NCBI GenBank assembly: GCA_029624765.1
Contig: JARSSO010000031.1
Coordinates: 1 to 64,000, forward strand
Length of the DNA stretch: 64,000 nt
Reading direction: 5' to 3'
Source: Candidatus Contendibacter sp.
Lineage (GTDB): Bacteria > Pseudomonadota > Gammaproteobacteria > Competibacterales > Competibacteraceae
The notes under the pieces: generated by a model
The model's input: only the letters and a program-made list of their open reading frames with translations
The model's database searches: none
What the model was told of the DNA's origin: nothing
Part shown: one piece after another, positions 53,019 through 62,850 of the stretch
How positions within the stretch are numbered: position 1 is the first letter of the stretch
Layout of the letters: every line of letters starts with the position of its first letter
Made by a program: the position numbers and the translations under genes

Positions 53019-53147
53019 AAAGCAGGATGGTTCCATGTTTATACCGATAAATACCCGTTTTTATATCATCATCTCAAACATGCAATCGCTTAACTACCTG
53101 AGGCTCGCTTGAGTCCGTAACTTCGCGTGGCGACAAAGATTTTTCGC

Positions 53148-56225: not shown

Positions 56226-58364
56226 TCAATCTGAGCTGACCGGGACCAGGGCGAACACGGTTACGGCCCAGGGCTCCATCTGAAAATCACCGCCGACCTC
56301 GAGCAACAGCTCGCCCAGGGCCAGGCGTGGCTGAGCGGTGTTGAGCAGACAACGCCAGTGGCTGGCGTCGCGTACCGCGGGGAGGCGAAACGGGACCACC
56401 ATTGGGCCGGCATTGAAAATGACCAGCATGGCATTGTCGATTTCGGGATAGCCATCGTCGGTGAAGTGCTCGCCGGCATCGCCGGCCAGTAACATGCCAA
56501 AACAGCGCGCCTTGGGTTCCTGCCAATGATAGTCGCTCATGGTGCCGCCGCCGGGGCTGATCCAGTCGATGTCGCGCAACCCATGGGGCTTGGAAATTTG
56601 CAGGCCGTGCATGAAACGGGACCGACGCAGCACCGGGTGTTCCTGGCGCAGGTTGATCAGACGGCGGACGAAATCGAGAAACTCCTTTTCCTCGGGGGGG
56701 ATGGTCCAATTCAGCCAGTTGATATCGTTATCCTGGCAATAGGCGTTGTTGTTGCCGCGCTGGCTCCGGCCGAACTCGTCGCCGGCCAGCAGCATCGGCG
56801 TGCCCTGGGCCAGCAGCAGGGTGGCCAGCATGTTGCGACGCTGGCGCAGGCGCATTTCCCGGATGGCCGGATCGGTGGTCGGTCCCTCGACCCCATGGTT
56901 GTTGCTGAAGTTGGACGGATGGCCATCGCGATTGTTTTCACCGTTGGCCTCGTTGTGGCGCTCGTTGTAGCTGACCAGATCGGCCAGGGTAAAACCGTCG
57001 TGGCTGGCGATGTAGTTGATCGTGGCCCACGGTCGCCGACCGTCGTGCTCGAACAGATCACTGGAGGCGAGCAGATTGGGCGCCAGTTTGGACAACATGC
57101 CGTCGTCGCCCCGCCAGAACCGGCGCACCGTATCGCGGAAGCGGTCGTTCCATTCGGCGGTGCCGGCGGGAAAACCGCCGAGCTGGTAACCACCGGGACC
57201 GATGTCCCACGGTTCGGCGATGATCTTGACACGCGACATGGCCGGGTCCTGGCGGATGGCGTCGAAAAAACCGCCGGCGCGATCGTAGCCATATTCTTCC
57301 CGAGCCAGGGTGACCGCCAGATCAAAACGAAAGCCGTCGACGTGCATTTCGTTGACCCAGTAGCGCAGGCTGTCCATCACCATTTGCAACACCCGGGGAT
57401 GCATCAGGTTCAAGGTATTACCGCAACCGGTGTCGTTGATGTAATAGCGGCGGTCGTGGGGGAGGAGCCGGTAGTAGGAGGCGTTGTCGATGCCCTTGAA
57501 GCTGAGGGTCGGACCCATTTGGTCGCCCTCGGCGGTGTGGTTGTAGACCACGTCCAGCAGTACCTCGATGCCGGCGTCGTGCAGGCGTTTGGTCATGGTC
57601 TTGAACTCGACGAGATCGCCGCCGCTCAGGTAGCGCGGTTCCGGGGCGAAAAAGCACAGGGTGTTGTAGCCCCAGTAATTGCGCAATCCGCGGTCGGTCA
57701 GGAAACGGTCATCGACGAAGGCATGGACCGGCATCAATTCCACGGCGGTGATGCCAAGCGACCGGAGGTATTTGATGGTTTCGGGGTGAGCGATGCCGGC
57801 GAAAGTGCCGCGGAGGTGGTGAGGCACGCCTTCATGACGGATGGTGAAGCCACGGACATGGGTTTCGTAGATCAGGGTCCGTGGCCAGGGGGTTTCGGGG
57901 GCGCGATCACCATCCCAGTTGAAGCGGGTATCCACTACCACGCATTTGAGCATGTCGCGGGCGTTGTCGCGGGTATCGAACGACAGATCGGCGTCGCGAT
58001 GGCCCACCTGGTAGCCGCAATGTTCGTCGCGCAGGTGCAGGGCGCCATAGAATTGCTTGGCATAGGGGTCGAGCAGCAGTTTGTGGTGGTTGAAGCGATG
58101 GCCAATCTGCGGTTCGTAGGGTCCGGACACACGGTAGCCATACAGGGCGCCCGGCCACAACCCCGGTACATAGCCGTGCCAGACCTGGTCGGTATTCTCG
58201 ATAAGGGCCAGACGTTCGATCTCGCGCTGGCCCGACGAATCGAACAGGCACAGTTCAACGCGCTCGGCATGAGCGGAAAACAACGCAAAATTGACGCCCT
58301 TGCCGTCCCAGGTAGCGCCGAGGGGATACGGATTGCCGGGCCATACACGAGCGCGGGCGGACAT
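56226..58364 (-). CDS. glgX: Glycogen debranching enzyme GlgX
   Basis: GlgX hydrolyses alpha-1,6 branches of phosphorylase-limited glycogen. The 712-residue protein has an N-terminal CBM48 domain (GNPYPLGATWDGKGVNFALF) and a GH13 barrel. The barrel has VYNHTAEGDQ, nucleophile Asp348 (GFRFDLAVTLA), acid/base Glu384 (IIAEPWDIGPGGY) and the third acid in YIASHDGFTLAD. FGRSQRGNNNAYCQDNDINW is diagnostic of isoamylase/GlgX. Length fits the TreX/GlgX group. It lies on the - strand, downstream of the Tus-like gene, 122 bases apart. Confidence 0.95.
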   Translation of the reverse strand: MSARARVWPGNPYPLGATWDGKGVNFALFSAHAERVELCLFDSSGQREIERLALIENTDQVWHGYVPGLWPGALYGYRVSGPYEPQIGHRFNHHKLLLDPYAKQFYGALHLRDEHCGYQVGHRDADLSFDTRDNARDMLKCVVVDTRFNWDGDRAPETPWPRTLIYETHVRGFTIRHEGVPHHLRGTFAGIAHPETIKYLRSLGITAVELMPVHAFVDDRFLTDRGLRNYWGYNTLCFFAPEPRYLSGGDLVEFKTMTKRLHDAGIEVLLDVVYNHTAEGDQMGPTLSFKGIDNASYYRLLPHDRRYYINDTGCGNTLNLMHPRVLQMVMDSLRYWVNEMHVDGFRFDLAVTLAREEYGYDRAGGFFDAIRQDPAMSRVKIIAEPWDIGPGGYQLGGFPAGTAEWNDRFRDTVRRFWRGDDGMLSKLAPNLLASSDLFEHDGRRPWATINYIASHDGFTLADLVSYNERHNEANGENNRDGHPSNFSNNHGVEGPTTDPAIREMRLRQRRNMLATLLLAQGTPMLLAGDEFGRSQRGNNNAYCQDNDINWLNWTIPPEEKEFLDFVRRLINLRQEHPVLRRSRFMHGLQISKPHGLRDIDWISPGGGTMSDYHWQEPKARCFGMLLAGDAGEHFTDDGYPEIDNAMLVIFNAGPMVVPFRLPAVRDASHWRCLLNTAQPRLALGELLLEVGGDFQMEPWAVTVFALVPVSSD

Positions 58365-58486
58365 GAGCAGTCTCCTAAGTGGGGTAAATTATTTTTGAAG
58401 GGATCGTTTACTTGGAAATTTTAAACGATATCGGTGACAAGCAGCGGACATTGATATTCCAAGTTTTTATACCATCATCTATTTTT

Positions 58487-59392
58487 TTACCCAACACCCA
58501 CCCGATAAGAACCCCGATAACGATACACCCGGACCGACGGCAAAAACGGTTCATCCTCAATTCGCACGTCCGCCCGGCGCAACCGAGGATTCAGCGGAGG
58601 CTCCGGCGTGACCGCCACAAATTCGGGCAACCGCTCGCCGCGCCGCAACGGCACCAAAATCGGCAGAGGAGTTTGCATCAACCGACGCGATACACCACCA
58701 TGCTCCAACGCGGCGAAAACGATATTGGCACGCAGGTGCGGACAAACCCCACGAACACGCGCCAGCGGTTCATCACTGGCAATTTCCGCCAGCCGCTGCA
58801 ATTCCAACCGAATCTGGGGCGTTTCGGCGCGCTGTTCCAACAAGCGGCGTGCCTCGGCCACACTGGTACGTTGAATCACACGGCCCTGCTTGGACCAGGT
58901 AAAACCAATCTTGAGCGGTCGCCGTTCCAACAGGGGAACATGCCGATAAGCCTGCTTCAAATTCAGACGAGCGGCACCCATGCGCCGCATGGCCATCGCC
59001 ACGGTTTCCCACCGCCGATGCAAATCAGCCATTGCATTATTCGTCTCGACCCGACCGAGATTTTTCAACGCCAGCACGGCGGCCTTGAATTCATCCTTGG
59101 CAACATGGCAGGCATGAGCGGCGGACAGGGTTTCCAAACTGGCCCCAACGATACCAGGACAGGTCAGCGTTTCCCGGCCATCCTGACTGTCTTCATACCA
59201 AAGAGCTCGATAAAGTTGAACCGCCTTAAGACGCATATCCAAATTCTCCGCCAACTCCACCTCGGTACGCGATACCCAAGCTGGCAGGACGCCATCCTGA
59301 CGAACCGCCACGCAAAAAGCATCCAGTCTGGCAAGCATCGCTTCGAAAGCGGACAGCAAATTCATTCGTAAGACAACGGACGAAGTTTGCAT
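58487..59392 (-). CDS. tus: Tus-like DNA replication terminus-binding protein
   Basis: The 301-residue protein resembles E. coli Tus (309 residues) along its length. Matching blocks are RTEVELAENLDMRLKAVQLYR, TCPGIVGASLETLSAAH, LNLKQAYRHVPLLERRPLKI leading into GFTWSKQGRVIQ, and QTPLPILVPLRRGERLPE. Tus binds Ter sites and blocks the DnaB helicase from one side. The start ATG 59392 is preceded by GAGGAGG; a GTG at 59407 sits inside that site. The basic middle part corresponds to the Tus DNA-binding core. It lies 32 bases after cysB and 122 bases before glgX. Identity is by pattern only, so a related role on plasmids or other sites is possible. Confidence 0.75.
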   Translation of the reverse strand: MQTSSVVLRMNLLSAFEAMLARLDAFCVAVRQDGVLPAWVSRTEVELAENLDMRLKAVQLYRALWYEDSQDGRETLTCPGIVGASLETLSAAHACHVAKDEFKAAVLALKNLGRVETNNAMADLHRRWETVAMAMRRMGAARLNLKQAYRHVPLLERRPLKIGFTWSKQGRVIQRTSVAEARRLLEQRAETPQIRLELQRLAEIASDEPLARVRGVCPHLRANIVFAALEHGGVSRRLMQTPLPILVPLRRGERLPEFVAVTPEPPLNPRLRRADVRIEDEPFLPSVRVYRYRGSYRVGVG

Positions 59393-59424
59393 CCCTATCC
59401 TCCTCACTACCTAACCCAATCTTG

Positions 59425-60399
59425 CTAAAGAACTGGCAACTCAATTCCCCTAAACAACGCATTAACCTCGTCCAGAGTCTGAAGCCGTTCCATCATCCGC
59501 ACCCGTTCCCTGGTCAAGTGAGGAGCAAACAGCTCAATAAACTCATACATATAACACCGCAGAAACATGCCACGCCGAAACCCAATCCTGGTCACATCAG
59601 CCGCAAACAAATGACCGGCTTCCAACCGCACCAAATCCTGATCCTGCCTCGGGTCATACGCCATCCGGGCAACAATACCCACTCCCATTCCCAAACGAAC
59701 ATAGGTTTTAATCACATCCGCGTCGGTCGCAGTGAAAGCTACCATCGGTTTCAGTTGCGCGCCACGAAACGCCTCATCCAATTGCGACCGACCCGTAAAG
59801 CCAAAAACATAAGTCACCAGCGGATACCGAGCAACATCCTGTAAAGTCAACTGATCCAGATGGGTCAATGGATGATCGCGCGGCACCAGTACACAGCGTT
59901 GCCAGACATAACAGGGCATCATCACCAAATCCTCGAACAATTCCAAGGACTCGGTGGCAATCGCAAAGTCCACCTCGCCAGACTGCACCATCTCGGCAAT
60001 CTGCGCTGGAGAACCTTGATGAATCTGCAAGGTCACCGCCGGATACCGTTCGCGAAAAAGCTTGACCACCGGCGGCAGGGCATAGCGAGCCTGGGTATGA
60101 GTCGTGGCAATCGACAAGCTGCCCCGCCGGTCGTCGCGGTACTCCTCGGCCAGAATCTGGATATTGTTAACCTCTCGCAGGATAACCTCCACCTTGGGAA
60201 TAATTTGCCGCCCAATCGGCGTTATTTCAGTCAGATGCTTGCCATTGCGGCTGAACAATTCGACACCCAATTCCTCTTCCAGCAACCGTAATTGTTTGCT
60301 GATACCCGGTTGAGAAGTATAAAGGCTCTCCGCAGCGGCGGAAATGTTCATATTATTGCGAACAATAGCAACCAGATAACGTAGTTGCTGCAACTTCAT
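59425..60399 (-). CDS. cysB: LysR-type regulator CysB
   Basis: CysB activates sulfate uptake and assimilation genes in response to N-acetylserine. The 324-residue protein has exactly the E. coli length. It starts [20 protein letters not shown], with HTH region TSQPGISKQLRLLEEELG. The inducer domain has SIATTHTQARYALPPVV, VTYVFGFTGRSQLDEAF and FTATDADVIKTYVRLGMGVG, all near-identical to CysB. Start ATG 60399 overlaps the glgB stop by 4 bases (ATGA). CysB may control the cysTWA unit 3.4 kb downstream on the same strand. Confidence 0.95.
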   Translation of the reverse strand: MKLQQLRYLVAIVRNNMNISAAAESLYTSQPGISKQLRLLEEELGVELFSRNGKHLTEITPIGRQIIPKVEVILREVNNIQILAEEYRDDRRGSLSIATTHTQARYALPPVVKLFRERYPAVTLQIHQGSPAQIAEMVQSGEVDFAIATESLELFEDLVMMPCYVWQRCVLVPRDHPLTHLDQLTLQDVARYPLVTYVFGFTGRSQLDEAFRGAQLKPMVAFTATDADVIKTYVRLGMGVGIVARMAYDPRQDQDLVRLEAGHLFAADVTRIGFRRGMFLRCYMYEFIELFAPHLTRERVRMMERLQTLDEVNALFRGIELPVL

Positions 60400-62624
60400 G
60401 ATGGACAATATCCCCTGCGGGAGACCAAAATCAAGCCAGTCAATGGTGGCAAATCAAGCACCAACGAGCAAGGATATCCCAAATGCGGGATCGAATCGGC
60501 GTGAACCGTACCGTTACCCATGCCACCGCCACCGTAAATGTCGGCATCGGAGCAGAGAATCTCCTGATAAAATCCCGACAGCGGCACTCCCACGCGATAA
60601 CCAGGACGGGTCATGGCCGCAAAGTTGATAACCACCAAAACTGGATCATCTCCACCACCACGGCGCAGGTAGGCTACGACCGATCGGGCGGCATCATGAC
60701 AATCCAGCCACTCAAAACCTTCCTGAGAAAACTCGGAATCGTGCAGGCTCGCCATGGATAGATAAAAGTGATTAAGATCTCGAACCAGCCCCTGTATTCC
60801 CCGGCACTCCGGCTGGCCCAGCAACTCCCAGTCAAGCACCGCGGCATGGTTCCACTCCCGTTCCTGCGCCAGTTCGTTGCCCATAAATAGAAATTTCTTG
60901 CCGGGATAAGTCCACATATAAAGGTAAAGCAAGCGTAGATTGGCAAAGCGCTGGTGGCGATCACCCGGCATCCTGGAAAGCAGTGAACCTTTACCATGCA
61001 CGACTTCATCGTGAGACAAAGGCAGCATGAAATTTTCGGTAAAGGCGTACAGCAGACCGAAGGTCAACAATTCGTGATGATGGCAGCGCAAGGCCGGATC
61101 ACACGACAGATATTCCAAAATATCGTGCATCCATCCCATATTCCACTTCATACCGAATCCAAGGCCCCCCATCCAGGAAGGCCGAGTCACCAATGGCCAG
61201 GCGGTGGATTCCTCGGCGATCATCAGGACCCCTGGATAGCGGCGATGGATGATTTCATTGAGTTCGCGCAGGAAGGCGACCGCTTCCAGGTTCTCATTGC
61301 CGCCGAACAAATTGGGCGCCCATTCACCCGATTCGCGGTCATAATCCAGATACAGCATGGATGCGACAGCATCCACCCGCAAACCATCCAGATGATATTC
61401 TTCCAACCAGAAACAGGCGCTGGCCAGCAGGAAATTCTTTACTTGATTGCGGCCGTAATCGAACGCCAGCGTACCCCAGCCTCTTTGCTCGCGACGATCC
61501 GGATCCTGGTGCTCATACAGGCAGGTGCCGTCGAATTGAGCCAGACCGTGCGCATCCTTGGGAAAGTGGCCAGGCACCCAGTCCAGAATGACGCCGATAC
61601 CAGCCTGATGGCAGTAATCCACAAACCAGTGGAAATCATGTGGGCTACCATGACGGCTGGTGGGGGCGAAATACCCGATCGGCTGATAACCCCAGGACGC
61701 ATCCAGGGGATGTTCGGTAAGAGGCATCAACTCGATGTGAGTGAAGCCCAGCGCGCCGACATAGGCCACCAGACGCCGCGCCAGCTCCCGGTAATCGAGG
61801 TAGTCGCCGTGTTCGTCCCGCTGCCAGGAGCCCAGGTGAACTTCGTAAACCGCCAGCGGAGCGCGCGTCCAATTCCGCCGCCGCCGCTGGGCCATCCACA
61901 TCTCGTCACGCCATGGATAGGGCGCGCTTTCCATGACCAAGGCGAAATTGGCCGGGCGCCGCTCGAACCAGCGACCATAAGGATCGCTCTTACGCAATCG
62001 TTGGCCCTTTTCCCCGACCCGAAGCTCAAACTGGTAGCGCGCACCCACGGCCACATCAGGAACGAACAGCTCCCAAACGCCACCGCGACGGCGCAAGGGA
62101 TGACGCAGACCGTTCCACTGGTTGAAATCGCCCACCACGCTGACTTGCGCGGCGTTCGGCGCCCAGACCGCGAACAGCACCCCGGCGATATAATCCACCG
62201 TGCGCGGATGCGCGCCCAACACGCGGTAGGCGTGCAGATGACGCCCTTCGTTGAACAAATGCAGATCGTACAGACTTAGCTGCGGAGGAAAATTGTAGGG
62301 ATCGTAAGCGACCTGCTCGTGGCCGGCGGCATCGATCCAGGCCAGCCGGTAATGCGGCGGCAGCGCGTCGGCCGCGCCGCGCCACTCGAACAGATCGGTA
62401 TCCGTCAACCGCCGCATTGGTTGATCGATATCGAGCAGGCGGGCTTGTCGGGCGCCGGGCAGGAACACCCGTATGATCGAACGATCGCCGCGGCCATGGC
62501 GACCCAGCACGGCGAACGGGTCAGGGTGGAGACCCGTGTGCAGCAGCGCGGCATCGGCCATGATCCGGTCCACGGCGGATGGCTCCAGGTTTCGAGGCGT
62601 ATCGTTGTCGTCGGGGTGTGTCAT
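60396..62624 (-). CDS. glgB: 1,4-alpha-glucan branching enzyme GlgB
   Basis: GlgB moves a glucan chain to make alpha-1,6 branches in glycogen. The 742-residue protein has two N-terminal CBM48-type domains (residues 25-125 and 130-235, [20 protein letters not shown]). A GH13 barrel follows with [19 protein letters not shown], nucleophile Asp418 ([13 protein letters not shown]), acid Glu471 (MIAEESTAW) and [14 protein letters not shown]. The Asp-Glu spacing of 53 equals that of E. coli (405/458). ATG at 62624 was chosen; a TTG just before is unlikely. It is divergent from glgC and overlaps cysB. Confidence 0.96.
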
Positions 62625-62850
62625 CAAGTTGTGGAGTATCGCATCAGTTCGTTCATACTTCGGTCATCCCGGTCAAAGCGCCTGGAACGACCAAAACCGT
62701 AGACCGAAACCGGCTATGATTAGGGTCGGTCAATGCTTCGCTCCCTCCGCTACCCATGGCCACCCGGTCCCTGGGGCGGTGGGCGGGTTCGCCGTTCAAA
62801 CCGCCACGCTTGAAAATCGAATCAGCATAGCAGAGAGGAACATCAAACGC
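62625..62850. promoter_or_regulatory. Divergent glgB/glgC control region
   Basis: The 226 bases between the divergent glgB and glgC starts must carry promoters for both. A TATGAT occurs at about 62715 on the + strand, but no convincing -35 partner was found. AGAGAGGAAC precedes the glgC start at a slightly long spacing. Confidence 0.4.

Follow-up and report, generated by a model that had tools for sequence, protein, structure and literature searches.

In the Tus-Ter system of E. coli (Tus, PF05472, PDB 1ecr), Tus halts replication forks at the chromosome terminus; a few Ter sites face dif on both replichores, and TerB is an asymmetric site that lies on the tus strand, close upstream of the tus start. 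RTP of Bacillus is a dimeric protein and is unrelated to Tus. RTP-Ter also provides polar barriers around the terminus (PMC10331603). A survey based on the PF05472 model found tus to be resident in only three groups, having been domesticated three times and relatively recently (Galli, 2019, PMC6549158); these groups are most Enterobacteriales, Pseudoalteromonas and most Aeromonadales (reviewed in PMC10331603). Narrow traps of type I have been described in Edwardsiella tarda and Dickeya paradisiaca, with widths of 56 kb and 18 kb, respectively (Toft et al., 2021, PMC8707476). A search of open-access full texts for Tus/Ter in Competibacter returned nothing relevant. The Competibacteraceae are mostly uncultured gammaproteobacteria, known from wastewater reactors.

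We analyzed a window of 64,000 nucleotides (the whole stretch of DNA under study, G000:C31:1-64000) from a Competibacteraceae draft genome (4.29 Mb, 63 contigs). The original prediction placed a Tus-like gene here among cysB, glgX and glgB with tight spacing, and the neighbors are indeed as it described. The features of the locus are as follows.

56226..58364, minus strand: GlgX-type glycogen debranching enzyme (CBM_48 and alpha-amylase domains), downstream of the tus-like gene
58487..59392, minus strand: divergent tus homologue, 301 aa from the ATG at 59392, stop codon included, at 58487
59425..60408, minus strand: CysB-type LysR regulator (LysR domains), with 32 bp from the tus-like ATG to the regulator stop
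60396..62627, minus strand: glycogen branching enzyme GlgB (GlgB_N, CBM_48 and alpha-amylase C domains)
58465..58480, minus strand: predicted Ter site (AGATGATGGTATAAAA), just past the tus-like stop codon
53059..53074, minus strand: second Ter site predicted for this arm (AGATGATGATATAAAA), flanked by the 3' ends of the convergent DUF2058 and cysA genes

An alternative in-frame GTG lies upstream at 59407 and would give a protein of 306 aa. We take the LysR regulator at 59425-60408 to be CysB, and CysA and two permeases are encoded further left in the window. The Tus-like gene has orthologues in 22 of the 25 Competibacteraceae genomes examined (35-93% identity) and is therefore not a chance open reading frame; the closest named relatives that carry it are Candidatus Contendobacter and Competibacter, and the 22 aligned family sequences have a mean column identity of 67%. 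An open reading frame of ~325-340 aa adjoins the gene in most orthologous loci, at the position of the regulator, and the order cysB-tus-glgX is kept across most of the Competibacteraceae. The glycogen/sulfur setting is not odd for a terminator gene: in these genomes the cluster is only ~28-45 kb away from the terminus. The window protein had no match in phages. We discarded an NCBIfam match to a sigma factor as weak (E 0.0015; 18 bits against a cut-off of 270).

Kinship with Tus emerges from relatives rather than from the single sequence. By itself, the window protein matched no family in a Pfam hmmscan at E <= 10, and hence not Ter (PF05472); the PF05472 HMM found nothing in the whole genome of the window, and sequence and profile searches of the PDB did not reach Tus. 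With PF05472, for which the cut-off is 22, the orthologue L017 (68% identical) reaches 25.4 bits. L024, a protein from another family and ~30% identical, is also above the cut-off (27.1 bits) and matches the Competibacteraceae family alignment with an E of 1.2e-32. When a 16-member alignment of the wider group (A2) was compared by hhalign with a profile of six classical Tus proteins (A3), the match was nearly full length (99.1%, E 5.5e-19). Identity to E. coli Tus is ~18%, and hhalign of the single sequence to it is weak (2.3%, E 0.02); the comparison works solely alignment against alignment. A profile search against the Tus family therefore fails for the window protein alone and succeeds for L017 and in the profile-profile comparison. 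Judged from these searches, PF05472 is too narrow for the Tus-like proteins of the Competibacteraceae.

The AlphaFold model of the window protein (pLDDT 81.9) contains the two-domain Tus fold. Foldseek against the PDB gave significant matches for four Tus chains only (6e-12 to 4e-11; next best 0.015), with an E of 2.6e-11 for 1ecr. VIA-align gave Z scores of 15.5-15.8 over 251-255 residues for the Tus chains and 5.4 for the next fold; the fold held in common with E. coli Tus extends over 251 residues (1ecr, Z 15.6, rmsd 4.8). The similarity to Tus that had been noticed in the sequence is thus upheld by the Pfam score of L017, by the profile-profile comparison and by the fold, and the window open reading frame is a distant, very divergent Tus homologue. 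A tree separates the Competibacteraceae group from Tus of E. coli and of the IncC type; the latter two pair with 100% support. Tus-like proteins from plasmids of Halomonas, Methylophaga, Azotobacter and Pseudomonas reach up to 40% identity to the window protein, and most of those from the first three genera are annotated as 'DNA replication terminus site-binding protein'.

A candidate target site was first seen in the flanks of the orthologues, as a short repeat on the gene's own strand that is conserved upstream and/or downstream of nearly all of them. Its consensus is WAGATGATGRTATAAAAA and its core motif AGATGATGRTATAAAA. The window has exactly two copies of AGATGATGRTATAAAA, where 0.13 would be expected by chance at up to 3 mismatches. 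The exact AWGATGRTATAA occurs seven times in the genome of the window against none for the reversed control, and the core AWGATGRTATAAWA 90 times in the 25 family genomes against four for the reversed control. All 22 gene-bearing genomes among those 25 hold at least one core, at 1-9 copies per genome, whereas the near-complete, gene-less G014 and G021 hold none, although G021 belongs to the same genus as the gene-bearing G011. One core was found in G002, which is incomplete and in which the gene was not detected, and Candidatus Competibacter phosphatis has the gene and sites with one mismatch only. Conservation extends beyond the search pattern (A at -2 in 74 and G at -1 in 66 of 91 sites), and the 91 sites examined in context have 91 distinct flanks, from which it follows that they are not a copied element. 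The 14 bases 5' of these sites are G/T-rich and C-poor (at -14, for example, G 36, T 28, A 17, C 10). Perhaps this bias reflects strand-asymmetric mutation at stalled forks, or the flank is part of the site.

The predicted site is not of the E. coli type. The E. coli core TGTTGTAACTA has two matches with 2 mismatches in the window, where 2.1 are expected by chance, and the similarity of the new motif to TerB is no better than that of shuffles (p 0.85). We therefore treat the system as a variant, and dropped as unsupported the idea that the new Ter derives by sequence from that of E. coli. The original prediction found no Ter-like core in the window and supposed that the target may differ. Its first statement holds for an E. 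coli-type core, and it missed a different repeated motif, AGATGATGRTATAAAA; its second is supported by that predicted site. Searches for the exact motif were negative in the Oleispira and Thalassolituus genomes covered and near the plasmid relatives (no exact AWGATGRTATAAWA within ~2 kb of the plasmid Tus-like genes read), and sites there consequently differ.

The placement of the sites was read against a putative dif. Patterns of the E. coli type, at 2-3 mismatches, found no dif in the genome of the window or in close relatives, and dif was assigned from conservation and position. The putative dif is a conserved intergenic 28-mer between the two arms, with an XerD-arm-like end (TTATGTAATCA), and a pattern built from it matches in 13 of 23 genomes. 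On contig C6 of G019, minus-strand sites at 10.8 and 14.8 kb and plus-strand sites at 57.0 and 71.9 kb enclose the putative dif at 28.9 kb. On contig C41 of G004, the order is the same, with minus-strand sites at 174.6 and 181.8 kb, the putative dif at 218.3 kb and plus-strand sites at 251.6 and 253.1 kb; the two plus-strand sites have one mismatch to AGATGATGRTATAAAA, and no other site with 0-1 mismatches occurs in these 340 kb. In both genomes GC skew is positive to the left and negative to the right of the trap, and changes sign inside it. Where exact sites share a contig with the putative dif, 14 of 14 (seven genomes) have their 5' end towards it, for which the binomial probability is 6e-5 if the sites were independent, which orthologous sites are not. 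GC skew of the motif strand is negative at 27 of the 28 sites for which 18 kb or more of context is available, and at 66 of 91 overall. Site polarity is that expected of an E. coli trap.

In the genome of the window, the trap was pieced together from two contigs. C31 carries minus-strand sites at 53.06 and 58.47 kb and has mostly positive skew, while C43 has the putative dif at 42.6 kb and minus-strand sites at 5.6 and 9.6 kb. The ends of C31 (209,845) and C43 (209,867) abut when aligned to G004:C41 by blastn, with C43 reversed; the contig ends have no match to G004 at this junction, so that an inserted element is possible there. Extended to the right by synteny, the window coordinates place dif at ~102.9 kb and the opposite, plus-strand sites at ~135.8 and ~139.9 kb. 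Inward-facing sites thus bracket dif at widths of about 42 and 70 kb in the two relatives and ~77 kb, by synteny, in the genome of the window, with one innermost site beside the tus-like gene; in the genome of the window this is the innermost left site (58465-58480). The same arrangement, with the innermost site of one arm beside tus, is found in the type I narrow traps of E. tarda and D. paradisiaca; in type I Enterobacterales traps Ter is 78-83% identical to E. coli TerB (PMC8707476), whereas here Ter is different and the bacteria belong to another order. Compared with E. coli, the few sites likewise face dif on both replichores, but the core is AGATGATGRTATAAAA instead of TGTTGTAACTA and the trap is narrow instead of wide. 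Further sites of the genome of the window are on C19 and C44, contigs without chromosomal placement. A degenerate Ter-like motif (3 mismatches) lies beside the putative dif in both relatives (G004:C41:218240-218295 and G019:C6:28890-28940), and the product of the gene next to it starts with MARSGIRYEDVQ, a KfrA-like start.

We consider it highly probable, from sequence comparison, that Candidatus Contendobacter and the Competibacteraceae possess a new, divergent and resident Tus/Ter fork trap. The gene would encode a terminator protein of the Tus family that most likely binds the non-palindromic WAGATGATGRTATAAAAA, few copies of which flank the terminus on both sides, the 5' (AG) end of each facing dif. 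By analogy with E. coli, a fork that has passed the terminus and arrives from the AG end would be stopped at the bound protein, while forks coming from the origin would pass. Because one innermost site adjoins the gene, autorepression of the kind that E. coli Tus exerts at TerB is probable here too; in many relatives the asymmetric site lies on the gene's strand close upstream of the start, as TerB does, which again suggests autorepression. The number, orientation and dif-centered position of the predicted sites lend support to the replication-fork barrier that was originally proposed.

A less probable reading, to which we give a small chance, is that the Tus homologue binds sites near dif and no longer arrests forks, acting as a protein that marks or organizes the terminus, or only as a self-repressor. 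MatP is such a terminus-organizing protein, acting with other sites. In the alignment, the E. coli Tus residues that contact the helicase and those of the C6 lock are not retained, and some genomes keep only 1-3 exact sites. Nonetheless, sites that point inward on both arms, as in G004, G019 and the genome of the window, are what arrest predicts, and non-oriented markers would not require such polarity; the GC skew also changes sign inside the trap. The motif might also be a promoter element of the extended -10 type, or an operator for a local cys/glg regulator, with a protein that has no role in replication. Indeed, it contains TGNTATAA, which resembles an extended -10, and one site precedes glgX while others precede the tus-like gene itself. 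We regard this as very improbable: -35-like hexamers occur at background frequency (9/91 against 81/873), 1-9 copies per genome are too few for a housekeeping promoter, the site at 53059-53074 lies between convergent gene ends, and the sites are absent from near-complete gene-less genomes and oriented towards dif. Finally, Tus genes move on plasmids (PMC6549158), and the closest plasmid relatives of the window protein (Halomonas, 40% identity) are plasmid tus genes, which could point to a plasmid-borne or recently acquired mobile tus without chromosomal function. This we find scarcely credible in view of the conserved cysB-tus-glgX position, the clustering of the tested family members and the matching set of chromosomal sites, which together suggest a long-settled resident gene.

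If the resident trap does arrest forks, it might do so by another route than that of E. coli. As aligned, the window protein lacks the E47/E49 loop of E. coli Tus and does not retain F140, H144 and R198 (for the roles of these residues, see PMC10331603, Table 1). E47/E49 and R198 fall in gaps, F140 is replaced by M and H144 by R in an alignment that is weak at these places, and G149 is ambiguous, being aligned to R142 or, with a shift, to G139; IncC Tus from plasmids likewise has R at the H144 position. Part of the lock region has a pLDDT < 50 in the model. With both alignment and model weak in this region, the apparent loss of the lock should be taken as a lead rather than a result. It is conceivable, and we put it forward tentatively as somewhat doubtful, that a resident Tus/Ter trap with a different Ter, in a lineage outside the three groups with resident tus, achieves polar arrest without the C6-H144 'mousetrap' lock and the E47/E49 loop.

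Pairs of facing motifs also occur elsewhere in these genomes. Two Ter motifs face each other, ~1.46 kb apart, at G000:C44:53397-54868 (L072 and L073) and at G004:C10:2134-3607, and flank a tyrosine recombinase gene (Phage_integrase), an arrangement conserved in two species; a dif-like 23-mer with 3 mismatches is at C44:54776. This could be either a mini-trap around the recombinase or an element making use of dif and Ter. Facing Ter-like motifs, one per pair with 3 mismatches, are also present at G000:C19:20388-23872 and G004:C58:65645-66420. The stretch between them includes a 695-bp block that is 98% identical between the two species, and is perhaps a mobile element. On a Halomonas sp. I5-271120 plasmid (L119, 667-2699), a site-specific integrase lies directly upstream of the Tus-like gene, which hints for a second time that Tus and tyrosine recombinases are connected.

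With the A2 profile, members of the wider family are detected in 26 of 369 gammaproteobacterial genomes, compared with nine for PF05472. Not every homologue lies at the terminus: in the complete genome G387 it is ~0.1-0.35 Mb from the skew flip, and on the complete, 2.9-Mb chromosome of G343 (C1:796092-796973) ~0.6 Mb from the GC-skew flip, where the function of the Tus-like gene may differ. The Competibacteraceae family is invisible to the PF05472 model, and yet it has a family-wide gene and an array of polar sites. It is thus probable that a group in which no fork trap had been recognized has one, with Ter sites that were previously unlisted. This offers a natural test of the Tus residues and Ter bases that polar arrest really needs.
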